Shown here: one piece after another, positions 2,441 through 64,000 of the stretch
Position numbering within the stretch: the first letter of the stretch is position 1
How the letters are laid out: every line of letters begins with the position of its first letter
NCBI RefSeq assembly: GCF_910596095.1
Contig: NC_056537.1
Coordinates: 637,074-701,073, forward strand
Length of the DNA stretch: 64,000 nt
Origin: Thunnus maccoyii
Lineage: Eukaryota > Chordata > Actinopteri > Scombriformes > Scombridae
Direction of reading: 5' to 3'
Position numbers and translations under genes: made by a program
The notes under the pieces: generated by a model
The model's input: the letters and a program-made list of their open reading frames with translations, nothing else
What the model was told of the DNA's origin: nothing
The model's database searches: none

Positions 2441-4670
2441 ATGACGCGCTGCCGACGGCTGTTCCTGCTGGTTTGCTTTGGGATGCTTCATTTGGGTGAG
2501 TGGACCAGGATTAATTTATACTCAGTAGAGTTATTAAACGAGCAGACGGGTGTCAGTAAAACTACCTTTATCTCAAATCCTCTCGTTCCTCAGTTTAAAT
2601 AGCTTTTCCTAATGAGCAGAACAGGTGAGTGAGTGTCTTTAATTGTCAAATTAAGGATCATATATGGTATCTGTTTACAGATGATACTAAATATTACTTA
2701 ATTAAATCACATTTTGAGCATTTAATTGAAGGTTTATAGGATGAGTTTTGTACACTAGAGAGATCAATAAATAGATCATTTACTCACTACAGTGACTGTA
2801 TAGTGAATATGGAGTGATTTCAGACTGATGATGTATTCATATTATTGTGAAAATAAGCTTTTGTGAGCGTTTCATCATTAATGTGTGCGTCTGCAGTGCA
2901 ACGAAAGTTCAAATGTGTTGACCTTTGACCCCAGCAGCGCTGACCTCACTGCTGACCGCTGCTGACGTCATATCGAGATAAAAAAGATATTGATTAGAGA
3001 TGCAGCTGGTAGTGTTTAGTACAGCAACACAGAGCAGAATATTACTGCGACCAACAACATGCGAGACCGTCGTTGTTCTGCTGTGATGTACGTCTACCTG
3101 CAGCCATGCTAGCAGCGTTAAGCTAAATGCTAAAATGACGATGCTAAGCAGGTGTAATGTATACCATTTTCACCATCTTAGTTTAGCACGTTAGCACGCT
3201 AACATACGCTAATTAGCACGAAACACAATGAGTGTCTGAAGGACGTTTCACAGGAATCCATCTGATAATTGTTGAGATATTTCAGTCTGACGACGGAGTT
3301 CAGCTGTTTTTAACCGTCAGATTAAAACCAGCTGACAGAACTGTGACGTCTACGTTCATCATGTGATGCCTTTAATTCAGCCATATTTCAGTATTTGATA
3401 CTTAAAACTGTTCATTTGTTTGAGAGTACAGTATGAAATAATGCAGCAATAAGAGGCTTTATTATTGTCACATGACCTGTAGATTATTCAGGTGAACATC
3501 TGTCTTCATACGTGACTTCCTGTTCATTAATAAAGAAGAGTTTGAATCGGTTTGTCTGACAGTAGAAGAAAAGGATAAACATGAGACGTCATGACTCATA
3601 ATCACAGTAAACTAACGAGAGTAACTTCAAACACAATCACTAATGAGACAGTAACTTTACCACCAGAGAAACAAAGCAAACTGACACATCATCATCATCT
3701 TCTTCTCCTTCTTCTTCTTCTTCTCCTTCTTCTTCTTCTTCTCCTTCTCCTTCTTCTTCTCCTTCTTCTTCTTCTTCTTCTTCTTCTTCTTCTTCTTCAG
3801 GCTCTGGACTTCGCTGCTACAAGTGTTCAGATTACACCGGACGCTGTGAGAACGTCCAGGAGTGCACGTACGAGGACTCGTGTATTTCTCTGAGTGAAAG
3901 AGGTCAGTTATCACTCAGCTGTGTGTTTATACGTTTATCCAGAGATAACTAATATAATAATAACTACAATAGATAATTAACATTAATTAATTCTATATTA
4001 TGAAATAACTATGAAATAAAAAAATGTTTATTCTTACTGTCTCTTAGTCATTCCATACCTTTAAATTTTACCAGCCGCCACTGGTCACTATGTGTGTTTC
4101 TCATCTTATTATATCATCTAAAGTTAATCAGATGATGTTTTCTTTGTAAAGAGTCCTGGTGAACACTGAACACTCATAGTTCACTAAAGAACCACAGAGA
4201 GGCTTTGTGCAGTTATAGTACACGCAGTATGTATTTACATAGTTTTCCTATGAAAAGAAGCACAGAACTGATATGTAACTGTCATTTGCTCAATCAAAAC
4301 TCGACCAGGTAGGAAACAGATCGATAACGAGCACCGGTGGCCTGAAAGATTAAAACACATAATATAACCTGTACTTTAATCAAGATGTGAAAATAATGGC
4401 TGTTAACTGCTGTGAATGAGATAAAGTTAATATTGTCCCCTACAGGCAGATATAACAGTATAAACCTGCAGTCGAGCCAAAGTTGGTATTTACAGTAAAA
4501 CTATATCAGGTGTAATCAATACAGACACGTTGTCATTTCATCATTCGAACATAGATCATAGTGAAAAAACATCTATGCCAATCATATCTATGCCAGTAGG
4601 AAACCTAACCCTAACCCGATGATAGCAACCAGTTACTCATTCAAAGTATTTATGGTGAATAATAAATTAT

Positions 4671-4701
<31 letters not shown>

Positions 4702-5083
4702 TGATTCCTTATTTTTTCTTCTGAAAGCACAACGTCTGTCTCATATTCATAATGAGAACATACTTAATATAAAACAGTTTTATTGCTGTTACTTGATGTA
4801 CTTTAACTTCCTGAAGATAAATATTGATTGCAGTTTACCTGTAGTGTTTTGCAGTAATAGTTGGTGCATATGTGTGTCTGCAGGTGGTAAAACCATCCGT
4901 CAGTGTATCCGCTACACCGACTGCGATAACTCTCGCCTCACTCAGATGTTTCCCGCCATCTCCGGCTTCACGTATCGCTGCTGCAGCAGCAACCTGTGCA
5001 ACTCCAGCAACGCCGTCTCCACGGCGACGCCCGTCCTGGCTCTGATGGGGTCGCTGCTGAGCGTCTGGTGGTGTTGGATCTGA
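2441..5083 (+). CDS. cd59: CD59-like Ly6/uPAR GPI-anchored protein
   Basis: Exons 2441-2495, 3801-3902 and 4884-5083 join in frame (phase 1 at both introns) to 118 residues. Exon 1 is a signal peptide starting MTRCRRLFLLVCFG. The mature part begins LRCYKC and has ten cysteines in three-finger order, with a CC pair and the closing LCN motif typical of Ly6 domains. The last ~20 residues are hydrophobic after a small-residue stretch, as expected for a GPI-attachment signal. Exon layout (signal, half-domain, half-domain plus tail) is that of the CD59/Ly6 family. Known role of CD59: surface inhibitor of complement membrane-attack assembly. The function of this copy is inferred; another Ly6 member is possible. 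Exon 2 is preceded by a CTT-rich tract that serves as its polypyrimidine tract. AATAAA occurs at 5180 and 5245. Confidence 0.85.
3695..3800 (+). repeat. (CTT)n tract forming the exon 2 acceptor of cd59-like gene
   Basis: About 100 bp of CTT/TCC triplets end directly in the AG acceptor of the second exon at 3800. The microsatellite supplies the polypyrimidine tract, so its length variation could affect splicing. It gives spurious poly-Leu and poly-Lys frames. Confidence 0.8.
4677..4700. repeat. (TA)n microsatellite
   Basis: Perfect TA dinucleotide run in intron 2 of the cd59-like gene. Confidence 0.8.
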
Positions 5084-11808: not shown

Positions 11809-14358
11809 AGGGACTGACAGGAAACGATGCAGCGTGTAATGCTTTGTTACTGATTGTTATTTGATCTGATATCAGCTTCACTGTTTACTCTTCTCTCTCC
11901 TGCAGCTGTAGCACAGCGGTGTTAGCTCACTGCTAATGCTAACACAACACATCCTGCGGCTGGACCACAGCGGTGTTAGCTCACTGCTAATGCTAACACA
12001 ACACATCCTGCGGCTGGACCACAGCGGTGTTAGCTCACTGCTAATGCTAACACAACACATCCTGCGGCTGGACCACAGCGGTGTTAGCTCACTGCTAATG
12101 CTAACACTACACATCCTGCGGCTGTACCACAGCGGTGTTAGCTCACTGCTAATGCTAACACAACACATCCTGCGGCTGTACCACAGCGGTGTTAGCTCAC
12201 TGCTAATGCTAACACAACACATCCTGCGGCTGGACCACAGCGGTGTTAGCTCACTGCTAATGCTAACACAACACATCCTGCGGCTGGACCACAGCGGTGT
12301 TAGCTCACTGCTAATGCTAACACTACACATCCTGCGGCTGTACCACAGCGGTGTTAGCTCACTGCTAATGCTAACACAACACATCCTGCGGCTGTACCAC
12401 AGCAGTGTTAGCTCACTGCTAATGCTAACACAACACATCCTGCGGCTGGACCACAGCAGTGTTAGCTCACTGCTAATGCTAACACAACACATCCTGCGGC
12501 TGTACCACAGCGGTGTTAGCTCACTGCTAATGCTAACACAACACATCCTGCGGCTGTACCACAGCGGTGTTAGCTCACTGCTAATGCTAACACTACACAT
12601 CCTGCGGCTGTACCACAGCGGTGTTAGCTCACTGCTAATGCTAACACAACACATCCTGCGGCTGGACCACAGCGGTGTTAGCTCATTGCTAATGCTAACA
12701 CAACACATCCTGCGGCTGTACCACAGCGGTGTTAGCTCACTGCTAATGCTAACACTACACATCCTGCGGCTGTACCACAGCGGTGTTAGCTCACTGCTAA
12801 TGCTAACACAACACATCCTGCGGCTGGACCACAGCAGTGTTAGCTCACTGCTAATGCTAACACAACACATCCTGCGGCTGGACCACAGCAGTGTTAGCTC
12901 ACCGCTAATGCTAACACAACACATCCTGCGGCTGTACCACAGCGGTGTTAGCTCACCGCTAATGCTAACACAACACATCCTGCGGCTGGACCACAGCGGT
13001 GTTAGCTCACCGCTAATGCTAACACTACACATCCTGCGGCTGTACCACAGCGGTGTTAGCTCACCGCTAATGCTAACACTACACATCCTGCGGCTGTACC
13101 ACAGCGGTGTTAGCTCACCGCTAATGCTAACACAACACATCCTGCGGCTGGACCACAGCGGTGTTAGCTCACCGCTAATGCTAACACAACACATCCTGCG
13201 GCTGGACCACAGCGGTGTTAGCTCACCGCTAATGCTAACACAACACATCCTGCGGCTGGACCACAGCGGTGTTAGCTCACCGCTAATGCTAACACTACAC
13301 ATCCTGCGGCTGTACCACAGCGGTGTTAGCTCACCGCTAATGCTAACACTACACATCCTGCGGCTGTACCACAGCGGTGTTAGCTCACTGCTAATGCTAA
13401 CACAACACATCCTGCGGCTGTACCACAGCGGTGTTAGCTCACTGCTAATGCTAACACAACACATCCTGCGGCTGGACCACAGCAGTGTTAGCTCACTGCT
13501 AATGCTAACACAACACATCCTGCGGCTGGACCACAGCAGTGTTAGCTCACTGCTAATGCTAACACAACACATCCTGCGGCTGGACCACAGCAGTGTTAGC
13601 TCACTGCTAATGCTAACACAACACATCCTGCGGCTGGACCACAGCAGTGTTAGCTCACCGCTAATGCTAACACAACACATCCTGCGGCTGGACCACAGCA
13701 GTGTTAGCTCACTGCTAATGCTAACACTACACATCCTGCGGCTGTACCACAGCAGTGTTAGGTCACTGCTAATGCTAACACAACACATCCTGCGGCTGTA
13801 CCACAGCAGTGTTAGCTCACTGCTAATGCTAACACAACACCTCCTACAGCTGCTACTTCACATTAAACAATGTAAACGGGCTTGTATTGTGAAGTGGTCA
13901 CAGGAAACACAGCATTTATCTTTTTTTCCCCTCATTCTTTATTCAACTTTCCATGTAAAATGAGAAGATTTAAAACAAAAACATGACTTCTGTCCGTATC
14001 CTTTTTTTCATAGAAAAGAACGTCTCTTTTCTGCAAATTAAATCCCACATAACGCATCAAATACATATTCAACATCAATCCAGAAGAATTTAACATAAAA
14101 GGATTCATAAAATAAATGTACCATAGTTTCTGTGCCAGTGTTACAGAACACACAGGAATCACAAAGATCATTTGGAGACTGAGGGGCTCCAGTTTCTACC
14201 TGCTCCCTGATGTTCTTGTGAGCCACGTTGCAGGATCCGCTCTTGGTGATGAAGCGGGCTCTCTGGGATCTGGATCGGCTGCGGTTCGGCTGGTTCTGGT
14301 CCTCCGCCAGGCGGGTCAGCAGGAAGCCGTCCGGCAGGAGACCCTTCCTGGCCAACAT
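8492..14358 (-). CDS. kcnj11l: Kir6-type ATP-sensitive inward-rectifier K+ channel subunit (Kir6.3-like)
   Basis: Minus-strand exons, in order: 14200-14358, 11410-11649, 11059-11328, 9774-9981, 8492-8922. They join in frame to 435 residues. The N terminus [20 protein letters not shown] and [10 protein letters not shown] match Kir6 subunits. [10 protein letters not shown] is the slide helix, TM1 lies at about 72-96, the filter TIGFG at 135-139, and TM2 carries Asn165 at the place of Kir6.2 Asn160. Glu184 and Arg190 correspond to Kir6.2 Glu179 and Lys185 (Arg as in Kir6.1). Cytoplasmic motifs [16 protein letters not shown] and [10 protein letters not shown] are clear. The C-terminal tail is long and lacks the Kir6.2 RKR ER-retention signal. 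Kir6 tetramers join SUR subunits to couple metabolism to membrane potential. Kir6.3 is my preferred assignment over Kir6.1 or Kir6.2; the symbol is tentative. The start at 14358 is chosen by homology over an in-frame ATG at 14385. Confidence 0.9.
11742..11806. repeat. (CA)n microsatellite
   Basis: CA repeat in intron 1 of the Kir6-like gene, between exon 2 and the 54-bp minisatellite. Confidence 0.85.
11914..13853. repeat. 54-bp minisatellite, ~36 copies, in intron 1 of the Kir6-like gene
   Basis: Unit of 54 bp containing CATCCTGCGGCTGGACCACA and GTTAGCTCACTGCTAATG. Copies vary at a few fixed sites: CAACAC/CTACAC, GGACC/GTACC, GCGGTG/GCAGTG and TCACTG/TCACCG. Because 54 is a multiple of three and the unit has no stop in one frame on each strand, the array gives open frames of over 600 codons on both strands (18-residue period). 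These are not treated as genes. Each unit carries GTTAGC and GCTAAC as a short inverted pair. Confidence 0.97.
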
Positions 14359-17204: not shown

Positions 17205-20200
17205 ATGGCGAACGCGTACAGAAGTAACGTGATTTAAATAAAACTTCACATGTTAATGATGTTATCTTTTAATGAGACGTGACGTCAGACTGAGATTAAG
17301 CGGGAATCCTCACAGAAAGCGACACATGCGCAGTAGCGACCTGCGTTCAGAGAGCTGAGAGGACAAACTGCTTCACCAGCTGACTGACAGCAGACATTCA
17401 CTCAACATAAACAGTTTGCCTGTCGGCTCCACAGTGTCACAGTGTCCGTAGTCATTGATTCATTGTTTTTTTTTTCCCGCCCACCGCAGCAAGCGGTCAG
17501 GCAGACTGAGAGCTGATCAATCAATGCAGACACCATGAATGAGCTGAAAACATGTACTGCGCAGACTGGTGTGATTTAAACAGCTGTTTGTGCAGATTAA
17601 GCTCCTCTAAATGTGCCAAAGAAGAAAGAAAAAAATAGATTCAGAGCGTAAAAACAACGCGCGTCAGAGCGGATCGATACATTTAATAAAATGGTAGAGA
17701 TCAATAATGTTTCTGTTTCTGGCGGAGATCACAGATGAAGCTGCTTCTGTCTCACAGATCGATAAGCTTTGAAGTGTCTGCATGAGCAGGGCTCACACAG
17801 TTTAATTAGGTGTTTATGTTGATGACGATGTTACAGGTGAAGCTGTTTGCGCAGTGACAGATGAAGGCGTTGCTATAGTTACAGATTAATTTGACGGAAA
17901 TGAGTAATAACTCAGTAAATACCAGATGAATCTAAAGAGGGACAACCTCATTATGTTTCTGTAACATTTGATATTGACATTTATTACAATAAAAGTGAAG
18001 TTTAAACTTTCTTAATTATTATTTGTTAATGAACTGAGATCATAAGGACTGTGTGAGTGTTTCAACCCACATCTGTCAGTCATCATATTTGATTGAAATA
18101 TTGCTAAATCCTGATTGGTGCATGAAAGTATGTGACATCACCGTTTCCCAAGTATAATAACTGAAGCTGAATGTTGATGTCAGAGACATGACAGCAAGAA
18201 ACTACAGCAGAAAATGTCTTTTCAAGACCTTAAAACAGTGACACACAGGTTCAAGTGTTTCCATGGTAACAGATATGAGACTGATGATGTAACTGTTACC
18301 ATAGTGACAGATGTGAGACTGATGATGTAACTGTTACCATAGTGACAGATGTCAGACCGATGATGTAACTGTTTCCATAGTGACAGAGGTGAGACTGCTG
18401 ATTTAATTGTTTCCATGGTGACAGATGTCAGACTGATGGTGAAACTGTTTCCATGGTGACAGATGTGAGATTGATGATGTAACTGTTGCCATGGTGACAG
18501 ATGGGAGATTGATGATGTAACTGTTGCCATGGTGACAGATGTGAGACTGATGGTGCAACTGTTTCCATAGTGACAGATGTGAGACTGATGGTGTAACTGT
18601 TTCTATAGTGACAGATGTGAGACTGATGGTGTAACTGTTTCCATAGTGACAGATGTGAGACTGATGGTGTAACTGTTTCTATAGTGACAGATGTGAGACT
18701 GATGGTGTAACTGTTTCTATAGTGACAGATGTGAGACTGATGGTGTAACTGTTTCTATAGTGACAGATGTGAGATTGATGGTGTAACTGTTTCCATAGTG
18801 ACAGATGTGAGACTGATGGTGTAACTGTTTCCATGGTGACAGATGTGAGACTGATGGTGTAACTGTTTCCATAGTGACAGATGTGAGACTGATGGTGTAA
18901 CTGTTTCCATGGTGACAGATGTGAGACTGATGGTGTAACTGTTTCCATGGTGACAGATGTGAGACTGATGATGTAACTGTTTCCATGGTGACAGATGTGA
19001 GACTGATGGTGTAACTGTTTCCATGGTGACAGATGTGAGACTGATGGTGTAACTGTTTCCATAGTGACAGACAGAGACATCAGACTGATGATTCAGCTTC
19101 GTGCCACCAACGCAGCCATCTTCACTGGTCGGAGGAACTCTGCTCTGAGAGGCTGGAGGTCAGTTTGTTTCCTGTCTGAACCTTTAAACTACGTTCAGAC
19201 AGTCGCTCTAATCATGTTTCACTCACAGGAGAATCTGAACGCAGAAGATCCTGTCAGTAGGAATTCCTCTAAAAATTTCACCATATCAGATTTTTTTTAA
19301 AATACCATCGTCAGCACAAATATTCTCTAGTTTCACCATTTATCTGTTTAAAAAAGGTTTATTGTACAATATACATGTTCAAAGTGTGTACGTGTGTAAC
19401 TGTTTCCATAGTGACAGATGTGAGACTGATGGTGTAATCAGTAAAGCCCCCTCTTCACTGCACCGACAGTGATACAACGTTAACTCGCCCACATTAAAAC
19501 CGCCGGAGACCCCTGCTAATGATAGCTTAGCATTAGCAATATCATTAGATTACATATCATAGCTCCACGATCAAATTAACGTTACCATGGCTCAGAACGC
19601 TTGTGATAAAAACTTAAGAGTAACGTTAGTTGGTGTCACTGATGTTTAGAAGCAGGTTGTATTAAGAACATGCCAACGTTAAACCAAACCAGGGATTTTC
19701 CCATAGTTATGTATAATATTCAACACAAGACAGTTATGTGTTCAGCAGATATTGATAACGTATGGTTAGCAGTTGGGACAGATAGCTTAGCATGTGGGAG
19801 GAGTAGAGTTAGATATCATTGAATAACAGATGAACAGTGATATGTAAACAACGTTCATGATAAAATGTTCATAACATTGACCCTCGTTATATGTCCTTAT
19901 TTTCTGAATATATTGTATGAGACTAATAACAAGTGTTCCAGTGTTGGTCATCTTAGCTAGCCAGCAACAAACCCAGGCTAGGAGAAGTGACGTCCTTGCC
20001 ATCTCGCCTGCCGTCTTTCTCATTTTTGGTTGTGATTGTTTTGCCCGTGTTGAACTGGATACAACGGACGCCGTCAGAACTCAGTTCTAGAAGCAGCCTT
20101 TCCAGGTTTTAGACGGCTGAATAAACAGAGCTCTGCTGACTTGCTGCCTACTTCTTCGCCATTCGGCAAACCGGAAGTCTCAGATTTATATGTTGAGCTG

Positions 20201-21674
20201 TCCTTGTCACCAGATGATTCTGTTTAATGAAAATTGTTCTTATTTGAACTGACAGCAGGAGAATAAACACGTCTGATAATTGACTCTTTCATATTTGTCG
20301 GGGGACTATTTCCAGCAGCAGATTAATCCGCGTTTGATGCTCTGTAGTGAGTATTTGCAGTTTAATTAATTTTCCACTAGAGGGCAGAAGAAGTGAACAT
20401 CCACAGACACAGAGCTCCACTGACAGGCGGTAATTAGTTGTGGGGTTCCTCAGGGTTCTGTTCTCGGCCCTTTATATGTTCAGTTTTCATATTTGTCCAT
20501 AAACCATCAGACTCTCCTCTGTTAGATGGTTAGATACATATGAGGCCTCTGATCATCACTTCTCTGCTCCTGCAGGGCGATAAGGAAGGAGATGGGGCTG
20601 CAGGGGATGTTGTCGGCTCGCCAGCTGAAGAAGAAATGGGACAACCTGAAGGAGAAGTACAAGGTCAGTCCAGCGCATCAGCGTTCACCCACGTGATCAA
20701 CGTACGAGTTACTGAAGAACTGATGGAGAGACACATTAATCTACAACCTCATGATTTAAACTGTGACGTCCTCTCCTGTGCAGGTGCTGAAGACCCCTCC
20801 AGAGGGGATGGAGAACTTGACTAGACCCAGCTCGTGGCGCTGGTTCTCCCTGATGGACGAGGCGATGAACGGCCGCCTGGTCGGCACCGCCGGCATCGTC
20901 CAGCCCTCCCTGCGGGACGAGGACGAGGACCGTCCCGCGGCTCTACCTCCGCTCGCTCTCCCCAACGCAGGACCGAGAGTTGTTGAAACGGGGCCTGACA
21001 TTGGGGACGTCCTGGAGCCGAGCGGGGTCGAAGCAGTGAGAAGAAGAACCTCTGAGCTGAGGAGTCGACCTCATGCTGCCGTGCTGTACGCCACCTTACT
21101 GCCCGACTGCACCGCCGCCGCCGCAGCCTCCACCTCCTCCTCCGTCGCCGGCAGGAACATCGTCAGGGAGGCGGCCGAGGTGGACGGGAAGCTGGCGGAG
21201 CTGCAGAGAGAGAGACGGGCTCTGGAGAGAGAGCAAGCCGAGTTCGACAGAGAGCTGATCGCTTTGGAAAGGGACCGAGAGCTGCTGAACAGAGACGCGG
21301 CCGCTCTCGAGAGAGACAGAGCGAGTATAGAGAGAGACAGGACGACTATGGAGAGAGACAGAGCTGCTCTAGACAGAGACCGGGCCTTTCTAGACAGAGA
21401 CCGGGCGTTTCTGGAGAGAGATCGGGTACTTGTGGAGAGAGATCGGGCGCTTGTGGAGAGAGCCAGAGAGGATGTGGAGAGAGACCGAGCTCAGCTGAGG
21501 ACGGAGGAGGAGGAGGGGGCGGCGGCGGCTGTGGATGGGGATCAGGCTGAGAAGGAGGTGGTGCTGCAGACCAGGTTCTACCAGAGCTGGATGGCTGCAG
21601 ATGTGGATCCAGACCAGCTGGAGACCAGGCAGAGACTGGTGTCTTTGTTCCAGAAGCTGGTTGAGAAACTGTGA
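17205..21674 (+). CDS. Single-module Myb/SANT-like protein with C-terminal coiled coil
   Basis: Exons 17205-17223, 19065-19158, 20576-20663 and 20784-21674 join in frame to 363 residues. Exon 1 is only MANAYR plus one base, with a good Kozak context; an in-frame ATG at 17181 is a weaker start. Exons 2-3 (about residues 7-67) form a trihelix/Myb-like domain: RLMIQLRATNAAIFTGRRNS, then WRAIRKEMG, then KKKWDNLKEKYK, resembling the Myb_DNA-bind_4 pattern. Exon 4 adds SSWRWFSLMDEAMNGRL, an acidic linker, and at about 198-306 a heptad coiled coil built of ERDRA-type repeats. The likely role is a dimerising DNA-binding nuclear protein (inference). I do not recognise a named family. Exon lengths 94 and 88 nt and all splice phases equal those of the four modules of the next gene, so the two are paralogues. 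The exon 2 acceptor lies at the edge of a minisatellite. ATTAAA at 21745. Confidence 0.8.
18257..19064 (+). repeat. 38-bp minisatellite ending in a splice acceptor, ~21 copies
   Basis: Unit of 38 bp containing AACTGTTTCCATAGTGACAG and ATGTGAGACTGATGG. The array runs directly into exon 2 of the single-module gene: the last TTTCCATAG is that exon's acceptor, and the exon's first bases (TGACAGA, then CAGACTGATG) resemble the unit. About half of the units keep ATAG (a possible AG acceptor); the others read ATGG. One isolated unit lies at about 19397-19437. Confidence 0.95.
20290..20395 (+). repeat. Dispersed repeat copy with CTCF-like site
   Basis: Shares ordered blocks with 38968-39060: GGGACTATTT, TAGTGAGTATTT, CACTAGAGGGCAGAAG. 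At 20374-20385 it carries CCACTAGAGGGC, which fits the CTCF core CCASYAGRKGGC. The class of the repeat is unknown and binding is unproven. Confidence 0.5.
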
Positions 21675-23227: not shown

Positions 23228-26200
23228 ATGGAGTCGGTCCTGAACCCGCCGCCGCAGTTCGTAGAAAACTCCTATAAAAGTAAGTAAACACGGTGCAGAA
23301 GGTGTAAACATGAAGCTCGCGCACAGGTGAGCCTTAACGTGCTGACCTATGACCCCCTTCACCTGCAGTGACTGAGGAGGACGTGAAGAGGCTGATTGAG
23401 TTCAGAGCATCTAACGAGGCTCTGTTCACCGGGAAGAGGAACTCTGCCAAGATAGCCTGGAGGTATGAAGAGTTAACCTGAGGGACAGGTGTGTCCATAG
23501 TAACAGCAGTCAGGTTTCCATAGTAACAGCAATGTAATCATCCCTCCTGTTCATACTGCTGCAGGTGGAAGTATAGTAACAAAAAGAGGAACTTTGGCAC
23601 TAAAAAAGACTGTAACGTTGAAAGATATCTACTTGATTTGACTCATTTGGACGCTGAAGCTTCATATTAGCTTCAGATAAACTGTTGTACAGCTGCTCTG
23701 TGTCGGACCAGGTCACAGAGTCGATGTTTGATGCTTCCTTCACCTGTAAACCAGCTGCTGCGTCCTCAGATGTGTTGTATCTGATCTTTGTTGGTAATTT
23801 GCCGTCTACAGTGTGGAACCCAGAACGCTAGTTTGCTGAAACACGGGTTCAGTCTGACTCTCTGTGGCGTTGATAGACTGTATGTTCTGAATGTGAACTG
23901 GTCACCAGTTCTAACGTGCATTATGAAGGGATCTTCTAATGGTCAGTATGAACAGGAGGAATAATTACAGCTTTAATGTTCATTTGGACTCCTGACTGAC
24001 TGTTGTTTGAAGACACAGACGCTTGTGAACTCGTCCTTTTTTTAAACTTGTGTTGGTGAGTTTTCCTCTCAGCTGACCTGCCGTCACCCTCCTCCTGTGT
24101 GTCGCTCAGCACCATCTTAAAAGGCCTCGGCCTGGAGGGGAAGCTGACTGCAGACCAGATCGCCAAAAAGTGGGACAACCTGCGGACAAAATACAAGGTA
24201 ATCTGACTATCAGTGATCTGACGTCGGTAACACAGACTCTTACTTTTAGAAACATTTTTGTTTTCTTCAGAAACTCTTTCTGTGAAGTTTGATCCACTTT
24301 GGATTCTCTGGTTTCATCCTGATGAAGGTCACCTGTTCACGAGCCGCTGAATGTGTTGAGAGGCGTCATGTGACCCTCACAGAGCTGTTAGAGAGAACAT
24401 TACAGCCTCCAGGAGCTGCTGTTTCAGCTCCTCTCATACTGACTGACGTTGATGAAGCTGATGATGATGATGATGATGTCAGCAACGTTCAGCTGCTCGT
24501 GATCAGGTGACGTTCATCCAGAGATTCAACCGGCCAACAGAACGAAGCTCGAAACGTTGTTTTGAGTTTGTTCGCTGTCTCTGCAGGACCTGAAGCAGCC
24601 CTATCAGGGTCAGGACAACCTGGGCGGCGTGGTGGAGTCGTGGCCCTGGTTCCACATCATGGATGAAGCCATGCAGGGTCGTCTCTACAACAGCAACCTG
24701 GTGCTGAGCCCCGACAGCGTCGTCTGCGGCGGCGGCGGCAGCCACCGCGGCAACAGCCAACCCAACCAGAACCAGGAGAACACCGACATCCTGGAGTTCC
24801 TCATCAAAACGGAGATGGAGGACACGGTAGCGGCGGAGGAGGCGGCGGCGGAGGACGACGGGACGGTTCACGCCGAGGCGCCGCCTGCAGAGGGCGTGCC
24901 GATGGGCTGGAGGAGGATGAGCGAGTGTTCCTATAAGAGTACGTAGTAGTATACGACTCGCCGCACTGAGCCTCAACCAGACGCCGCTGTAAGACACTGG
25001 TGGGAAAGTAGCGGCCCGTGGGCCAAATCCGGCCCCCTCGTCGAAAATAGAATGACAAAATAAACCCTGTAAATCACAGTGAACGTCTGGACCGCATCAC
25101 GCTGGTCCAACAGTGTTTGATGCTGACAGGAAGTCTAATAAACCAGTCAGAGGTTTAAGTTTTATTGTCCAATGGTTGGCAGGAAGTCGTCCCTCGCTAC
25201 GAAGTTTAAGGACGTCTGTTCACGGCAGCAGTTTCTTTAATCTGGGATGCGACGTGTTGACCGCCAAGCTCCGCCCAGCTCATTTACATATTATAATCTG
25301 ATCATGGCAGTAGAAGCAGCTGAGAAGGCGTTTTAACAGACACCCACTGATCACATGTTAATAGCAGGTCAGCAGACTCACACGCCACCGCCCGTTTCCC
25401 TCCCGACACGTCAACCAGGAACTCGTCTGTGATGTGTCGTCTCAGTGTGGAGAGTCGAGACTCGTCGTCCTTTAACGCAGAGATTCTCTGATCTGAACAA
25501 ACTAACGTTGATGTTTTTGTTTGTTAGTGTTGAGAAACGTGTCGTCTGTTCTTTTTAATCTGCGTCAACGTGTGAAACTATGAATCACAGTGCAGTGCAG
25601 ACACTTTACTGACACCACGTTCACACGTTTCCTTCTAATGAATCAGAATAGATCCACAAAATAAAACTGTCATCAATTTCATAAGTCAAAAGAAAAATGT
25701 TTATAAATGTTCAATAATTCAGCAAATCTTTGTTTCTCGTCGTCAGTGACGGAACCAGAAACCGAGCGGATGATCAAACTTCGAGCGGCGAATGAGGCGC
25801 TTTTCACCGGCAGGAAACATTCAGCCAAACCGGCCTGGAGGTGAGTTCACATGATCCAGACGGACCAGACCGAGATGAATAACTGACCTGACGGAGGTTT
25901 CTGCTCCCTGCTGAGACGCCACTGAGCATGTGCAGAAACACACGTCTGTTTACAGCTTCCTGTCAGGAACTAAAGGTGTCACAAATATTATCAGGCTGTC
26001 AGTCTCTCCAGAGTTTTTACCACATACATGGAAACCTGCTGTTGTGGCGGCCATTTTTAAAGCAGGCGGCCTCCAGCTTATCAGTAACTGTTAGCCTGTT
26101 GTTGCCTGTTAGCCTGTTGTTGCCTGTTTGCCTGTTGTTGCCTGTTTGCCTGTTGTTGCCTGTTAGCCTGTTAGCCTGTTGTTGCCTGTTAGCCTGTTGT

Positions 26201-29200
26201 TGCCTGTTTGCCTGTTAGCCTGTTGTTGCCTGTTTGCCTGTTGTTGCCTGTTAGCCTGTTAGCCTGTTGTTGCCTGTTAGCCTGTTGTTGCCTGTTAGCC
26301 TGTTGTTGCCTGGTAGCCTGTTAGCCTGTTGTTGCCTGTTAGCATGTTGTTGCCTGTTAGCCTGTTGTTGCCTATTAGCCTGTTGTTGCCTGTTAGCCTG
26401 TTGTTGCCTGTTGTTGCCTGTTAGCCTGTTGTTGCCTGTTAGCTTGTTGTTGCCTGTTGTTGCCTGTTAGCCTGTTGTTGCCTGTTGTTGCCTGTTAGCC
26501 TGTTGTTGCCTGTGTTTGCCTGTTAGCCTGTTGTTGCCTGTGTTTGCCAGTTAGCCTGTTGTTGCCTGTTGTTGCCTGTTAGCCTGTTGTTGCCTGTTAG
26601 CCTGTTAGCCTGTTGTTGCCTATTAGCCTGTTGTTGCCTGTTGTTGCCTGTTAGCCTGTTGTTGCCTATTAGCCTGTTGTTGCCTGTTGTTGCCTGTTAG
26701 CTTGTTGTTGCCTGTTAGCCTGTTGTTGCCTGTTAGCTTGTTGTTGCCTGTTAGCCTGTTGTTGCCTGTTAGCCTGTTGTTGCCTGTTAGCCTGTTGTTG
26801 CCTGTTAGCCTGTTAGCCTGTTGTTGCCTGTTAGCCTGTTAGCCTGTTGTTGCCTGTTAGCCTGTTAGCCTGTTGTTGCCTGTTAGCCTGTTAGCCTGTT
26901 GTATCTGTGGTGTCAGAGCTTATTTCAGTAGTGGTTCTTTTGTCTTGTGTCAGTCGTCATTCGTGCTTTCGATTTAACAGAATCATAAAATCGTTCAGAG
27001 TTGCAGCAAACTGAAGTAAATCGTCGTCTTTGTCACTTTCAACAGACAAATTGTGCACACAAATGATTAATTTGACTATTAATTATTAGTTTTGTTCTCC
27101 TCGTTCCTCCTTTGCTCCATAAAAAATGATCTCAGTGTTTTCATCACCCTGTTTATTCTCTCTGTGACGTCATAACGTCCGTTTCTTCTTTCCTGTTGAC
27201 ACATTTCAAACCTGAACATCCTCACTCATTCCTCCTGCACTCAGCCAGCCAGTCAATCAATCAGCCAGCCAATCAATCAGCCAGCCAGCCAATCAATCAG
27301 CCAGCCAGCCAATCAATCAGCCAGTCAATCAATCAGCCACCCAGTCAATCAGTCAGTCAATCAATCAGCCTACTGGGATGAGTCTCTGATTGAACTGGTT
27401 TGTGTTTTCAGAGCCATCCTGTATGAACTGGGTCTGCAGGGGAAACTGACCACAGACCAGCTGGCCAAGAAGTGGGACAACCTGAAGAGGAGATACAAGG
27501 TGAGTAACCGCCCGCCATCACCTGTAGTGACATCACCGCGTACCAGGTGACCCAACAGAAACACAGTCATTACTCAGATCCAGTTCAGTCACATGATATT
27601 AAAGACAAAAAGGAAAAACGGAAGCTTCAGAGAAACAATCAGCTGTTTTATAGATGATTTGACTATATTGTCATTCGATGTCTGTTAATACAGCAGAAAC
27701 AGCTGTGAACTAATAAACATTCATATCTGCTGACGGCTGCATTATATTCAGTTATTAACAGGTTATTAACTCTTTATATACAAATCTAAAGAACATCTTT
27801 TCCGTCTCCTGCAGGAGCTGAAGTTTCCCGCTCGAGGCGTGGAGACCAACCCCAGCTCCTGGCCCTGGTTCTACCGAATGAACGACGCCATGGAGGGCCG
27901 CTTCGCCGGCGCCGCGCCCATCCTCACGCCCATCGTGGAGGACGAAGACGAAGACTGCGAGCCGCTGTCGCCGACGCCCAAGAAGAGAGCCCGGCGGAGC
28001 CGAGGGGGGATGGCGGAGTTCCTGACGGAGTCGGAGATGGACCTGCTGGTGGACAACGAAGAGAAAAACGGGTCGTCTGCTCTGGGAGAGCTGCACCGCA
28101 TGGCCGAGCTCACGTACAAACGTAAGACACGTCAGACGCTAATGAATGTGGACGCTTTATTTATGAGACATCAGATTCTGTTTGGGATTCATCCTCCATG
28201 AAGCAGATGTGACATTTTAGACTGGATTATTGATCATCTAATGAACCGAGAGGAAGGAAACATCTGTTTAATGTTTTAACTAAATAACTGAAGAAACGTC
28301 TCAGTGACAGTAACGACGCACTCTAGAAAACACAGAGGATGTTCTGATGTTTAAACCTACATCTGACATCACCAGTACGTCCACACTGCACCAGTACGTC
28401 CACACCAGTATGTCCACACCAGTACGTCCACACTGCACCAGTACGTCCACACCATTACATACCAGTACGTCCACATTACACCAGTACGTCCACATTACAC
28501 CAGTACGTCCACACTGCACCAGTACGTCCACACCAGTACGTACCAGTATGTCCACACCAGTACGTACCAGTATGTCCACACTGCACCAGTTAAACTCATG
28601 TTTGCTTCAGTGATCCATCAGGTTAAAAGTCAGTTCAGCCAATCAGAGCAGAGCTTATTAAACTGCAGCAGATTATTGATCTAATCAAAGTAAAACAATC
28701 TGTAGAACATTAAACTGGTTCAGATGAAGATTTGAGACAATTACGACTGAAACTAACGTTTATTTTCATTATCTATGATTCACAGTCTATCAAACGTCAG
28801 ATAATAATAACGTTATAATAACTATTGTATCTTTACTGGTTTCTAACCGTCGTCACAGTGACTGAAGATGACACCAGGAGACTAATTGAGCTGCGAGCTG
28901 CTAACGAGTCTCTGTTCACCGGGAGGAGGAACACCGCCAAGCCGGCCTGGAGGTAAAGAAGCACAAGATAGAACATCTGCACTGATGTTCACATGTTCAG
29001 TCTGTGATCATTAAACCTCTGGAGCTTCATAATCAGTTTAATAAGGTTCCTCTTCATGTGTTTAATGAGATGTTTGACACCACAACAGAGCAGCTGCGTG
29101 GTTATTGTACGTGTGTGTTTATATGATGTTGGTGTTGTTTGGTCTGCAGGGGAATAGTGAAGGAGATGGGTCTGACAGGGAAGATAACACCTGACCAGGT

Positions 29201-32200
29201 CGCCAAGAAGTGGGACAACCTGAAGACCAAATTCAAGGTGACAAACCTTCAGTTTCCAGCCGTCAGGGTCGTGTTACGCTGAGAAGAAGTCGATCATATG
29301 ATGTGTTTAGATGTGTTTACAGCTTGTTAGCAGCTGCAGTGGAAGGAGTTCAAAGTCTGTCGTTACGGATGCACGACGTTATCGACACACATCATCGGTG
29401 TCGGCCTGACTGTGCTTCCCTCCTCGGACGGTTTCACCCCGACGGTCCCGGTGTTTCCTCCGCAGGCTGCACTTCACTCAGCTGCCCGACAGATCAGCTG
29501 CTTCTTCCCGCTTTAACTTGATTAACAAACCGAGGCTAACGTTAGCCGGGAGGCTAGCAGAGGGTTAGCTGGCTGCGCTTCCTTCCGGCCATGCTGCGGC
29601 TAACCCTCCGCTAGCCTCTCAGCTAACGTTAGCCCCGGCTCTCCGTGTGGATCCAACCGGAGCACCGAGCCCCGGTTTGTTATTCAGGTTGGAAGAAGCA
29701 GTGAAGTGCAGCCTGCGGAGGAAACACCAGGACCATCAGGGTGAAACAGTCCGTTGAGGAGCCGCTCTGTTCGGCTGCACAGATAGGAAACCCCTCGGCT
29801 GACAGGATGTACCACTCTGTTTGGGAAAAAAAATCTTTTTGGTTTATAACGGCGGTTGGCAACCAGCGTATCAGGTGCATTACCGCCACCTTCTGGTCCG
29901 GAGTGTGGACCAGAGATTAAATCCTACACATTAATCCTGTCTGTCTAATAAACTCAATGAAAACTCTGCTGCTGCTCCCACTTGACAGGTTCATTAAAGT
30001 TTTAATGCTGAACTCCAGTTTTCCTCAGTTCTTCCTTCATATATTGTCTTTCTTGATCATAATTAGTACAATCTATGCTTGCATGCATAATAAATAGTCT
30101 CCTCAGCCAGCTGGAAAGAACATGTTCATATATCGGCATCGGCCACAATGAGTTGGAAATATCGGCATATCAGATATCGATCCAATATCGTGCATCCGTA
30201 AGATCAGTGAAGTGTTTTCCTTGGTCGGTATTCTCAGTTTTCTTTAAATGATCTCCTGAATGTGACTGAACACTGAAACGCTGCTGGATCATGTGACCTT
30301 CATATATGTTTAAAGTCCCTCCTCTCAGGAACATGTTTGTTCTTCCCTCCGCTGGATGTTTGTCTGCTGAAGGAGGAAAGTTTCTCTGAGCTCAATGGAA
30401 AATCTGATTTTTAAGGGGCGGAGCTACGAGCAGGATGTGACATCACAGCTAGTTTGGAGCCAATCGTTGGTTCAATATTCAGGAAGCTGCAAAAAAAAAA
30501 AAAAAAAAAAAAATACAAAAACTGTAACAAAACATAAAAATTTGACTTGTAGGAACAAAACATCAGCTGATGGGACCAGTGACGAGTCTTAAAGGTTCCT
30601 GGTGTCTGAACGTGGTGGAGAAAACAAAAACTAAACTTCCTCTGCTCCCAGTTTTTAACGTCAGTGTAAACTGATGGTCCAGTTCAGATTATGATTGAAA
30701 CTCGCAGCCAATCAGAGCTCTCCGTCTGTCTCCGTCCCTGCAGGACCTGAAGTTCCCTCCTCGGGGGATGGAGGGCCAGACTAACCCCGCCTCCTGGCCC
30801 TGGTTCCAGCTGATGAGTGACGCTCTGGAGGGGCGTCTGGCGGGGAAAGCTCCCAGAGTGACGCCCATCTGGACCAACGAGGAGGACGCCGTGTTCGGCT
30901 CGTCTCCGCCCGCCGACAGAGACTGTCTGATGGCGGAGAGGAGCAGCGTGTCGGAGCTGGAGAGCATGGTGGGGGGAGACAACACGGAGGCCGATGGCAA
31001 CGTCACCTACATCGACGCCAGCGGGGAGGAGTGTTCGACGCCCTCTGACCTCTCTTATAAGAGTAAGACTGACTCCTCCGAGTGTTCAGTGCATCTGCTG
31101 TCAGTTTGCTGCCCTGCAGGACTTCTAGATTAAATATGTGTTATAATAAAAATAATAATAATACATTGAAAGCAAAAAATGACCTAGTAAAACTATACAC
31201 TACAGTCTCAGTAACTTTATTGCTTCTTTAACTTCATATAAACTCAGCAGCCAACGTCTCTATATGGTTATTAATAGGGATGCACAATATTATCGGTACG
31301 TCATCGGTATCGGCCGATAGAAGCTCTACAATGATAAATTGGTACCGGCGAATTCTGCCGATTATGAGCAGCCGATATGTCTCCTCCTCCTGACTGTGCT
31401 TCCCTCCACGGACGGTTTCACCCCGACGGTCCCGGTGTTTCCTCCGCAGGCTGCACTGATACTTTAACCTGAATAACAAACCGAGGCTAACGTTAGCTGG
31501 GAGGCTAGCAGAGGGTTAGCTGGTTGCGCTTCCTTACGGCCATGCTGCGGCTAACCCTCCGCTAGCCTCTCAGCTAACGTTAGCCCCGGTTTGTTGTTCA
31601 GGTTGGAAGAAGCAGCGGGACCGTCGGGGTGAAACAGTCCGTCGAGGAGCCGCTGTGTTCGGCTGCACAGATAGGAAACCCCTCGGCTGACAGGATGTAC
31701 CATGGTTGGCGACCAAAAACATACGTATGTATATCGGTGTCGACAATTAGCCAGAATGAGTTGGAAATATCGACATATCGGATATCGGTAAAAATATCGT
31801 GCATCCCTGGTTATTAATAATTAAAATGAAAAAGACACGTTAGACTCTTCCATTTAGCAGCTGTGTATTGTCTCTCAGTGACGGACCAGGACACCCGCAG
31901 GATGATTAAACTGCGAGCTGCTAACGAGGTCTTGTTTACCGGAAGGAGAAACGCTGCCAAAGCTGCCTGGAAGTAAGAGCCTGTTGTTGTTGTTTTATGG
32001 ATTCATACTGTAGCTGTAGTTCTATCAGCTGTGTTACAGATGCTGAGTCTCACATCTGTCTGTCTGTCTGTGACTCTCAGAGCCATCCTGAAGGAGCTCG
32101 GCCTGCAGGGGAAAGTCTCCACCTACCAGATGGCCAAGAAATGGGACAATCTGAAGAGGAGATACAAGGTTCAGCAGTCTGATCCAAACATCCGTCTGCA

Positions 32201-32915
32201 GCTGATTAATGATCATCTAATAATTATAATTAATCTGTTTAATGTTTCTGATTGTCAGAGAATCATCTGTTCAACATGTTTCTCCTCCTCTTCTTCCTCC
32301 TCCTCCTCTTCCTCCTCCTCTCAGGATCTGAAGTATCCTCCCGTGGGGATGGAGAGCGTTGCAGACGGCGCCTCCTCCTGGCCGTGGTTTCACCTGATGA
32401 ACGAGGCCATGGAGGGCCGGCTGGCGAGCAGCGCCCCCCTCCTCACCCCCGTCACCCAGGACGACGAGCAGCACCCTGACCCCGCCCCCAGACAGCGGCC
32501 CCGCCCCGCTCCTCCCCCTCCTCCTCCTCCTCCTCCCCCCTCCTCCTCCTCGGACTACGGACAGGAGGCGTTCGGCGACGGCGGCGGCGCGGAGCAGAAC
32601 CAGCGGAGCTCGGAGGCGTGCGACGGGCCGCTGGGAGGCCTGGAGAGGGAGTGGGAGGTGGTGGAGAGGGAGCGGGCGGCGCTGGAGCGAGAGAGGGAGG
32701 TGGTGGAGAGGGAGCGGGCGGCGGTGGAGAGGGAGCGGGCGGCGGTGCAGGCGGAGAGGCTGTGGTTGGACAGAGAGCGGGCGGCGGTGGAGCGGGACAG
32801 AGCCATGGTGGAGCAGGAGAGGGCGGCGCTGGGGAGGGAGAGGGAGGTGCTGGACCAGAGAGCCCTGATGCTGAACTCTGTGGGACACTCCGGACACCTC
32901 AACGCCCTGATGTAG
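23228..32915 (+). CDS. Four tandem Myb/SANT-like modules with C-terminal coiled coil
   Basis: Exons 23228-23279; module 1: 23369-23462, 24110-24197, 24587-24938; module 2: 25747-25840, 27412-27499, 27815-28121; module 3: 28859-28952, 29150-29237, 30744-31062; module 4: 31879-31972, 32081-32168, 32325-32915. All junctions are GT-AG and in frame, giving 782 residues; modules start at 18, 196, 359 and 526. Each module has a 94-nt and an 88-nt exon making a trihelix-like fold (RLIELRAANESLFTGRRN, PAWR, KKWDNLKRRYK), then a variable third exon opening with DLK or ELK and the signature SWPWF..M..AM.GR, an acidic tail, and an SYK or TYK end. Module 4 instead ends in an ERERAAVE-type coiled coil (about 689-770). 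A multi-domain DNA-binding nuclear protein is inferred. No named family is recognised. Gene prediction could split this into several genes, but phase continuity and the lack of stops argue for one. Confidence 0.8.
26090..26900. repeat. Minisatellite of two alternating words
   Basis: About 800 bp in the intron between the first two exons of module 2, built almost wholly from TTGCCTGTTG- and TTAGCCTG-type words (9-bp half units and 18-bp units). The order of words varies along the array. Occasional variants are TTTGCCTG, AGCTTG and CCTATTAG. Confidence 0.93.
27242..27370. repeat. CAGCCAGCCAATCAAT tandem repeat
   Basis: Short array of CAGCCAGC and CAATCAAT words in the same intron, about 40 bp upstream of the second exon of module 2. 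Confidence 0.85.
28368..28590. repeat. CCAGTACGTCCACA-type minisatellite
   Basis: Tandem copies of CCAGTACGTCCACACTGCA and shorter forms in the intron between modules 2 and 3. Short open frames here arise from the repeat. Confidence 0.85.
29365..30199. mobile_element. hAT-like foldback MITE, older copy
   Basis: Lies in the intron between the second and third exons of module 3. The left end ACGGATGCACGA and right end TCGTGCATCCGT are inverted repeats. The interior shares long blocks with the element at 31276-31810, including GACGGTTTCACCCCGACGG and an inverted pair of AGGCTAACGTTAGC-rich arms around 29530-29660. No target-site duplication is evident, so this is an older or rearranged copy. 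No transposase frame. Confidence 0.65.
30490..30512. repeat. Poly(A) tract
   Basis: Run of more than 20 A in an intron of the four-module gene; it may mark the end of a retrotransposed fragment, but nothing recognisable precedes it. Confidence 0.6.
31276..31810. mobile_element. hAT-like foldback MITE with target duplication
   Basis: A 535-bp element in the intron between modules 3 and 4. Termini AGGGATGCACAATATT and AATATCGTGCATCCCT are inverted repeats, and GGTTATTAAT flanks it on both sides (31266-31275 and 31811-31820). hAT elements duplicate 8 bp, so part of this 10-bp match may be chance. The interior is largely palindromic, with about 50-bp arms near 31474-31523 and 31547-31596. It has no coding capacity. 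Confidence 0.8.
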
Positions 32916-62100: not shown

Positions 62101-64000
62101 ATGTATGTAAAACATTTGTTGTTTCCAGAGGTCAGCAGCACAGACAGAGAGCAGAGTCTCTGATATCCAGCCGTCTGTCTATGAAGAGTGACCGGTCTAA
62201 AGAACATCCTCCACACTTCAGTAATGAACCTGGACCCTCAGACACAAAGTAAGAGACTGTTTCTACTGTAAACTGACCTGAAGATGATTCAGTGAGACGG
62301 TTTCATTAAGGTTGTAGTGTAGATATGAAGGAAACACAGTGGAAAGAAATAATGAACTACCTTCCATTCAGCTGTAATCTAGAACAGATCTTCATGTACA
62401 TGTTAACCAGAGACAGAGACAGGGCTGCTATTGCTATTTGATTTTCCAGTCTAACAATCTAAAGTAGTAGCAGGTAACCCAGGGTGATATTTACTAAGGA
62501 TTTAGTAACAAGTCACATTGTATCTCTTTATTTACTAAAGGACTGCACCGGGGTTTTGTGCAGGTAAAATGGAAGAAAATGGAGTGTTTGGTCTCCTGCA
62601 ATACAGAATGTGTTTTAACATGTTCCTGTTCAAAGACACAAAATATGGGAGGAAGTAATGGAAATGTATACAAACAGCCTGCTGCAGCTGATTTATCACT
62701 GCAGACTGACCACTGCAGCAGAGGAAACTGAGTCTGACATTTAACATTTGGGAAAAGTCAAATGTGTAAAACTGTTGTATCACACTGACACAGAGGGAGA
62801 GAGATTATAGCAGAAACAGTGAGAGAGAGAAACACAAATGAAAATATGCATTATGAAGATATTTAGCAGAGCTCTCTGTTCAGCACCACAACACAAGACA
62901 AAAGAGCAGCAGTCTGTTATTTTTCTGTTTTGCTCAGTTGCCTCCTGCTTATTTTTCCTGACTTTTAAAGTCTCATAGTAGCTTAAAGGAGCCCTGTGGA
63001 GTTTTCTTGTTAACAGACAAAAGTCATGTTTACATTGACTTACTGACCAAAACACACTGTGTGAATCCTTGTGGTCTAACAAATGTGTTGAATCCATTTC
63101 CCTCCTCATGAAACATTTGCAAAGTCGATTTTTGAAGCTAGTATTTTAAATCCTGCATTGTTTACATCCATGTTTACTAGTTTGCACTCTTCTTCTTCTT
63201 CTCTGCCTTTGCTGGCACATTGTTGTGTCTGTCTAATTACTTCTGAACCCTTGTAATTATACTATATATTATTTTATTTAAATTGAATGTGCTGAAGCTC
63301 AGAGCCTGAAGATCAAAAAACTGTGTAACTGTCCAAATACTGACAGTCTGGACTGTTTATGGAGGGATAGAGCTGCATCAACTTGTGAGCTGTCGGTTGG
63401 CCACCACTAATGTCATATGTCATAAAGAATGTATTCATGTCCACAGAGAGAGGAAGAGGAGGGGTGTTTCTGTGGAGGAGCAGCTGTCCTGCTGTTCTTT
63501 GTGTCAGGACGTCCTGAAGGATCCAGTCTCTACCAGCTTTATACACAGGCTCTGGAGACGGTTCATCACCTCATACTGGGACCAGTCTGCTCCATCAGGA
63601 GACTCCTCCTGTCCCCAGTGTGGAAAAAGATCCAGAACGAGATCTGGACTGCAGACAGACAGTCAGACCAGCACTGTACAAAGTAAGACTGAAGATCTGT
63701 CTGCTGGTGTCATCATCTCTGAAAACAGGACAGGAATCTACCTCCTCTATCCTGCTGAAAATTAACACAGTCAGACATATTTCTTTTTAATTATACCTTT
63801 TTTTCTTCTCTTTCAGCAGAAAGTGGTCTGCAGGAGGTTTTAGATGAACATAAGATCAGTCTGAGGAGGAGATGTGAATGTGTGACTGAAGGAACTGATG
63901 AAGCAGGAAGTGAAACCCCCCTCAACAGGATCTACACTGAGCTCTACATCACAGAGGGACAGAGTGAAGACGTTAATACCCAACATGAGGTGAGGCAGCT
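59149..64000 (+). CDS. NLR gene 2 (partial), degenerate RING
   Basis: Exons 59149-59276 and 62129-62248 encode two copies of the [14 protein letters not shown] peptide; both end in the same phase 2 donor, so they can be used together. Exon 63447-63682 equals the RING exon of NLR gene 1 in length and phase, but [10 protein letters not shown] has become SFIHRLWRRF. Three zinc ligands are thus lost, while CSLC and CPQC remain. The FISNA-NACHT exon starts at 63817 and runs off the window at 64000. Sequence from 62.25 kb on is almost identical to 40.84-42.59 kb. A recent tandem paralogue is clear; whether it is functional cannot be judged here. Use of the exon at 59149 together with the one at 62129 is inferred from phase only. 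Confidence 0.75.
60070..60640. other. Duplicate block upstream of NLR gene 2 exon copy c
   Basis: 60070-60460 matches 56410-56830. 60470-60560 resembles 58380-58460 (CTCTGCTCACACTTTGAGCTGTGA), so two duplicated blocks are joined here. Confidence 0.6.
60985..61108 (+). promoter_or_regulatory. NLR-type 5' UTR exon, copy c
   Basis: Fourth copy of the 5' exon block, donor at 61109, with AAAAGTGAAAGT at 61036-61047. It precedes the peptide exon at 62129. An insertion of unrelated sequence (about 60655-61010) separates it from its usual upstream flank. Confidence 0.5.
61144..61569 (-). mobile_element. LINE 3'-end fragment, duplicate of 57140-57565
   Basis: Same nested insertion as at 57140-57565 with only a few differences over about 600 bp including the flanks, so it was copied by segmental duplication rather than by new insertion. 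Confidence 0.6.

Follow-up and report, generated by a model that had tools for sequence, protein, structure and literature searches.

A predicted gene for a protein with four tandem trihelix modules was found in a 64,000-nucleotide window of the Thunnus maccoyii genome (782 Mb in 54 contigs; the window is NC_056537.1 positions 637,074 to 701,073, or C5:637074-701073 in the contig numbering used here). The gene lies on the forward strand at 23228-32915 (positions without a contig name are those of the window), and its 13 exons, rebuilt from the sequence, join in frame to 782 amino acid residues, with a TAG stop codon at 32915. The exons are 52, 94, 88, 352, 94, 88, 307, 94, 88, 319, 94, 88, and 591 nucleotides (nt) in length, and all 12 introns have GT-AG borders. 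A cassette of a 94-nt exon, an 88-nt exon, and a variable exon is repeated four times with identical 94- and 88-nt lengths. Since the exon phases 1, 2, and 0 repeat exactly, each three-exon cassette is symmetric (phase 1-1). The rebuild confirmed the preliminary description of this DNA, which had proposed 13 exons in frame, 782 residues, and four 94/88/variable repeats. A one-module paralogue precedes the gene on the same strand (17205-21674) with exons of 19, 94, 88, and 891 nt in the same phases, encoding 363 residues with a charged heptad tail of its own. The exons of the two genes are as follows.

17205..17223, + strand: upstream paralogue, exon 1 (MANAYR)
19065..19158, + strand: upstream paralogue, 94-nt exon
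20576..20663, + strand: upstream paralogue, 88-nt exon
20784..21674, + strand: upstream paralogue, SWRWF stretch and ERDR heptad tail, stop codon
23228..23279, + strand: four-module gene, exon 1 with the start codon; encodes the N-terminus up to SYK, outgoing phase 1
23369..23462, + strand: module 1, 94-nt exon, helix 1 region; PF13837
24110..24197, + strand: module 1, 88-nt exon, KKWDNLR
24587..24938, + strand: module 1, SWPWF stretch and acidic linker, terminal SYK
25747..25840, + strand: module 2, 94-nt exon
27412..27499, + strand: module 2, 88-nt exon
27815..28121, + strand: module 2, SWPWF stretch and linker with PKKRARR (residue 311), resembling a nuclear localization signal; terminal TYK
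28859..28952, + strand: module 3, 94-nt exon
29150..29237, + strand: module 3, 88-nt exon
30744..31062, + strand: module 3, SWPWF stretch and acidic linker, terminal SYK
31879..31972, + strand: module 4, 94-nt exon
32081..32168, + strand: module 4, 88-nt exon
32325..32915, + strand: module 4, SWPWF stretch, a stretch rich in proline, and an ERER heptad tail (94 residues predicted as one helix), stop codon

Repeats and insertions are present in the introns of both genes. In the upstream gene, intron 1 ends in a 38-bp minisatellite of 21.5 copies (18256-19071), which extends over the first 7 bases of the 94-nt exon; its last unit is the splice acceptor of that exon itself. This minisatellite repeats acceptor-like sites, 17 by a loose pattern and 8 in the exact CATAGTGACAG form. 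Introns 9 and 10 of the four-module gene contain two insertions (29366-30200 and 31277-31809) that are related to each other and have inverted ends (GGATGCAC...GTGCATCC), and the latter has, by eye, a 12-bp direct repeat on both sides.

The coding frame of the four-module gene is free of stop codons until its end, while each of the 13 exons has a stop codon in at least one other frame. The GC content at third codon positions is 0.60-0.88. The four modules share 58-71% of their residues, and in all six module pairs codon position 2 is the best conserved and position 3 the least. By the NG86 method, the ratio of nonsynonymous to synonymous substitution rates (dN/dS) between the modules of this one genome is 0.15-0.42, with a partly saturated dS of 0.73-1.88. 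The intact frame and these ratios indicate purifying selection. Together, the rebuilt exons, the codon-position pattern, the dN/dS ratios, and the dS values show that the repeats are real, coding, and old. The 94/88 exon pair is found again in the upstream gene and in a second one-module gene at C23:16.467 Mb, and thus the pattern is far beyond chance. The C23:16.467 gene has 94- and 88-nt exons and an ERER tail; one module is present within the 5.5 kb fetched, and the first exon was not found there.

Which family do the modules belong to? In Pfam, the 782-residue protein matches Myb_DNA-bind_4 (PF13837, trihelix) in four stretches, and each module with its linker scores 38.4-42.1 bits against a gathering cut-off of 27. 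The module of the upstream gene scores 40.8 bits. The MADF profile (PF10545) comes second, with 20.9-23.8 bits around its cut-off of 22, below PF13837 in all four modules. The four modules were combined with the upstream module in a profile for a search of the PDB, and the plant GT-1 domain is its sole significant relative (2ebi, E 9.9e-5; 2jmw, E 2.3e-4; the next match has E 0.2). The four Myb/SANT-like modules that had been noticed in the preliminary description are therefore trihelix modules, and the profile comparison that it proposed was positive for PF13837, while MADF came only near its cut-off. Module 2 had no match in NCBIfam, and no relatives were found in the bacterial/archaeal and viral collections.

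The preliminary description connected the SWPWF stretch with no named family. An unknown motif is ruled out here, because the stretch falls within PF13837, whose match runs to profile position 87-88 of 89. All five modules have the pattern WFxxMxxA(M/L), which is close to, not identical with, the fourth-helix consensus (F/Y)(F/Y)xx(L/I/M)xx(L/I/M) of trihelix proteins; it differs in having W at the first aromatic place, A at place 8, and M or L at place 9. The stretch resembles the fourth amphipathic helix, which assists the third helix in DNA binding (PMC4195496; this and the later citations refer to excerpts of the papers). In module 4 the stretch is predicted to be helical at residues 20-29 of the last exon. 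The trihelix family is characterized by a conserved tryptophan in each of its three helices; W31 and W53 are invariant in the five modules, while the domain starts, by eye, with M or L where other trihelix modules of the genome have W. PF13837 is also the profile used for finding wheat trihelix genes (PMC6460849). The plant factors GT-1, with one domain, and GT-2, with two, have the trihelix in common with the window modules and a downstream fourth helix that the SWPWF stretch resembles, but the window gene has four domains. ZSCAN20 has a SCAN domain and zinc fingers. Likened by description, ZSCAN20 and ZSCAN20-like are vertebrate proteins with at least two SANT-type domains (PMC3706607).

The borders of the modules may bear traces of their origin. 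An (S/T)YK sequence at the exon edge is common to exon 1 and the three inter-module linkers, and the first exon of the upstream gene ends in AYR. Linkers 1 and 2 are alike (EFLIKTEMEDTV and EFLTESEMDLLV), whereas linker 3 is less similar. The likeness of the linkers and the (S/T)YK edges fit an origin by tandem duplication of a symmetric (phase 1-1) cassette; the third exon of this cassette would be a part of an old last exon joined to the end of exon 1. For the order of duplication, ((M1,M3),(M2,M4)) is the best tree by DNA and codon models, not significantly so, and the protein data rank another tree first.

An exon-blind scan of the genome with PF13837 gave 77 matches, merged to 65 loci, and with module 4 as the query 61 matches were obtained at E<=1; the module-4-related loci number 37 when the window is counted as one. 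At seven distant loci (L028-L034), the GT donor that follows the first exon keeps its place in five cases, and the one following the second exon in six. Ten reading frames near distant loci were submitted to Pfam, and three of them, one each on C24, C10, and C8, match the transposase domain DDE_Tnp_4. With tblastn, transposase pieces were found at six of 11 distant loci (L028-L038), always on the strand opposite to the trihelix exons. At least 8 of the 37 loci lie within 5 kb of a DDE_Tnp_4 match, all eight in opposite and convergent orientation at a distance of 1.0-2.4 kb, while 0.07 would be expected if the DDE_Tnp_4 matches were evenly spread. The linkage counts are lower bounds, as 150 of the 558 DDE_Tnp_4 candidates were scored and listed. 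The tblastn search adds C9:6.547, C8:1.718, C24:16.26, and C17:23.96 Mb, raising the number of transposase-linked loci to at least 12 of 37. For PF13837, at least 7 of the 65 loci are near DDE_Tnp_4, all convergent, where 0.13 would be expected. A basic stretch follows the module at C24 and C8:1.718, and C24 also has an ER-rich tail.

As for the Myb-like proteins encoded by the second open reading frame of PIF/Harbinger elements, the copies that are convergent to DDE_Tnp_4 in this genome belong to the same trihelix subfamily as the window modules, mostly with the same exon edges. The window gene differs from these copies in having four modules instead of one and no transposase found nearby: none was detected by tblastn in the 64-kb window (E<=1e-3), and none of the 150 listed DDE_Tnp_4 matches is within 5 kb. 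Likewise, tblastn found no transposase at L009-L014 and L023-L027, and none of the 150 listed matches lies within 5 kb of the C23:16.467 gene or of the further arrays described below. The Harbinger Myb-like protein binds the element ends and has a part in carrying the transposase into the nucleus; among its retained relatives, NAIF1, ALP2, HDP2, and insect MADF proteins have been named (PMC9179366, PMC9710019). The same kind of origin has been proposed for NAIF1 (with HARBI1), Arabidopsis ALP2 and HDP2, insect MADF proteins, and miiuy croaker ADF-1L (PMC9710019, PMC11893794). These were likened to the window gene by description, not by sequence; multi-module forms are not described in the excerpts, and a co-retained transposase was not found in the window.

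In a tree of the modules, all sequences of the 94/88 type form one clade (support 100/99). Inside this clade, the window modules, the upstream gene, and the C23:16.467 gene form a group (84/90), and four of the five other members (C9, C8 twice, and C10, not C20) are transposase-linked. This is the pattern expected if a host kept a Harbinger Myb-like protein. The tree is unrooted with respect to the direction of descent and excludes L001, L002, L006, L008, the first C7 module, and the relatives at C24 and C5:4.83 Mb. As judged from these sequences, the gene family shares descent with the transposon copies, and the direction of descent is only moderately supported.

These results make it probable that a single host gene encodes all four modules, that its product is a nuclear protein binding DNA at several sites, and that it descends from a PIF/Harbinger Myb-like (trihelix) accessory protein. 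An ancestral one-module copy would have lost its transposase and been kept by the host, and tandem duplication of the phase 1-1 three-exon cassette would have brought it to four modules. In this likely function, basic modules are combined with acidic linkers and a long helix at the C-terminus. The net charges of the modules are +2, +7, +5, and +8, while those of the linkers are -10, -7, and -10. Linker 2 has the stretch PKKRARR, which is similar to a nuclear signal, and KKWDNL followed by basic residues is kept in the helix-3 region of all four modules. Each module may contact DNA through its third helix, aided by the SWPWF fourth helix. With acidic linkers of 73-85 residues, the four modules could bind four short sites independently and gain avidity for clustered sites. 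The ERER tail is predicted to be one helix (residues 102-195 of the last exon, with pLDDT 97-99 over 111-180), which may pair molecules and strengthen binding. Clustered GT-like sites or old Harbinger ends are possible targets.

Several points weigh against this interpretation. The tree does not support a group of the four window modules alone, with the upstream gene and the C23:16.467 gene outside it (32/84; 30% of bootstrap trees). Thus, expansion inside one gene is unproven, and my confidence in the interpretation was slightly lowered. Support is only moderate (86/80 and 84/90) for the host genes being nested among the copies of the transposon. The linked loci are not all independent, since six of the eight are on C8, three of them within 62 kb, and three of the six loci with tblastn hits had themselves supplied all four transposase queries. 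No transposase was found at 25 of the 37 loci, ten by tblastn in the fetched DNA and 15 by comparison with the 150 listed matches only. The model of the tail is a single-sequence prediction of one exon with a pTM of 0.41, and its SWPWF helix is of moderate confidence (block mean pLDDT 72).

Is it really one gene, and does it bind DNA? The modules might instead be several one-module genes in tandem, or a single locus that has internal promoters, with the linker exons serving as terminal or alternative first exons; the upstream gene is exactly a one-module gene of that kind. By eye, an ATG stands in frame in linkers 1 and 2, five residues ahead of the Y in YK (MSECSYK and MAELTYK, compared with MANAYR of the upstream gene), a stop codon lies two codons beyond the donor of linker 1, and the tree does not resolve the four modules as one group. 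Such an arrangement is nevertheless unlikely, because all three linkers end at a phase 1 GT donor with the next AG acceptor in the matching phase, none of the linker exons has an in-frame stop codon, the charged tail is present in the last exon only, and the linker segments are similar between modules. As for binding, the array might be a scaffold whose modules serve mainly for protein contact by docking histones, a transposase, or a co-factor, as SANT and some MADF domains do. The net charge of module 1, only +2, and the additional MADF matches of every module would suit a scaffold, and the MADF domain of miiuy croaker ADF-1L is needed for KAT2B binding (PMC11893794). I regard this as rather unlikely in view of PF13837 being the best profile, of the DNA-binding GT-1 domain as the only significant PDB relative, and of the helix-3 residues kept in every module.

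The relationship to the transposon can also be read otherwise. Since the tree is unrooted for direction and the order rests on 86/80, a Harbinger lineage could have captured its Myb-like gene from the host family. This is quite improbable, as the host genes stand inside a set where four of five other members are transposase-linked, the second set of PF13837 loci is Harbinger-linked too (at least 7 of 65), and the trees of fish Harbinger Myb-like proteins and transposases are reported to be congruent (PMC9179366). Nor are the modules expected to be still part of a mobile Harbinger element. The sister loci are Harbinger-linked, but tblastn (E<=1e-3) found no transposase piece in the window and no listed DDE_Tnp_4 match is nearby, no second full copy of the four-module gene is among the listed module-4 matches, only fragments of module 3, and the conserved frame with dN/dS below 0.5 between modules makes this very unlikely. 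One host gene of Harbinger Myb-like descent is therefore retained as the preferred reading.

Are such arrays common in this genome? I found three further arrays, all with tandem PF13837 modules on one strand like the window gene, and Pfam confirmed PF13837 in one module of each. At C23:12.9948-13.0023 Mb (L009; 12994804-13002314), exons for helices 1-3 and exons for helix 4 alternate in seven pairs on one strand; the third trihelix is split in two pieces, and the fifth helix-4 match is weak. Donors and pyrimidine-rich acceptors of this array, chosen by eye from candidate lists, fit the phases 1-2-1. At C23:12.712-12.717 Mb (L010; 12712408-12716928), there are four single-exon trihelices; their best-ranked donors are of phase 1 in every case, and for modules 2-4 this also holds for the best-ranked acceptors. 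At C7:9.1036-9.1053 Mb (L011; 9103606-9105252), there are three trihelix modules with inconsistent splice phases. The gene models of these arrays are partial and predicted from sequence, and each array may comprise one gene or several. Phase 1-1 cassettes fit at the two C23 loci, while the intron positions differ from those of the window gene. In the tree, the seven C23:12.99 modules group with one further locus (97/98) and two C7 modules group together (99/96), while the four modules of C23:12.71 are not united in one group. Since the 100/99 branch separates the window clade from the rest, the arrays arose more than once. The suggestion in the preliminary description that the module number can change agrees with counts of 1, 1, and 4 in the relatives and 7, 4, and 3 in the other arrays. 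Rapid present-day change within the four-module gene is not indicated, because its repeats are old (dS 0.73-1.88).

Pieces of module 3 also occur elsewhere on the contig of the window. L023, L024, and L025 (C5:1.11, 1.14, and 1.19 Mb, - strand) have module-3 fragments of 97.6-99.3% identity, which correspond to 28820-29365 of the window, or only to 28820-29097 in L025. Since the stretches around them match the NLR side of the window as well and the SWPWF exon was not found alongside them, they look like broken modules carried with an amplified region. Neither L023 nor L024 has the inserted element at 29366-30200 in its copy. A tract of gene conversion in module 3 was considered and rejected; the far copies begin at about 28820 with no real homology before it and lack this element.

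The NLR side of the window (41916-64000) has fish-type NLR genes with RING, FISNA, and NACHT domains and repeated leucine-rich-looking exons, and a second NLR copy begins near 63310. On the other side, an open frame at 4565-5080 has a CD59-like match of 31.9 bits, just below the Pfam cut-off of 33.9. A 54-bp minisatellite at 11898-13852 (36 copies, 97% matches), open on both strands for more than 650 codons, adjoins an inward-rectifier potassium channel gene on the - strand.

The one-module paralogues (upstream and at C23:16.467), the linkage to Harbinger transposase, and the clusters of seven, four, and three modules elsewhere are new beyond the preliminary description. Searches of the open-licence literature found no description of four tandem trihelix domains in an animal protein, although the gene may already be annotated under a locus name. 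In vertebrates, long DNA readers with many domains are mostly zinc-finger arrays, and such arrays recognise retroelements in mammals. By analogy, it can be speculated, with considerable doubt, that fish have a poly-trihelix class, built repeatedly from Harbinger-type modules via phase 1-1 cassettes, which reads long composite sites and may bind to Harbinger elements and restrain them. Fish may thus be building long DNA readers from transposon parts. The series of one, three, four, and seven modules in one genome is a natural test of how a single domain becomes a reader of long sites, and trihelix arrays of transposon descent would allow a test of whether the binding proteins of transposons are re-used against transposons.

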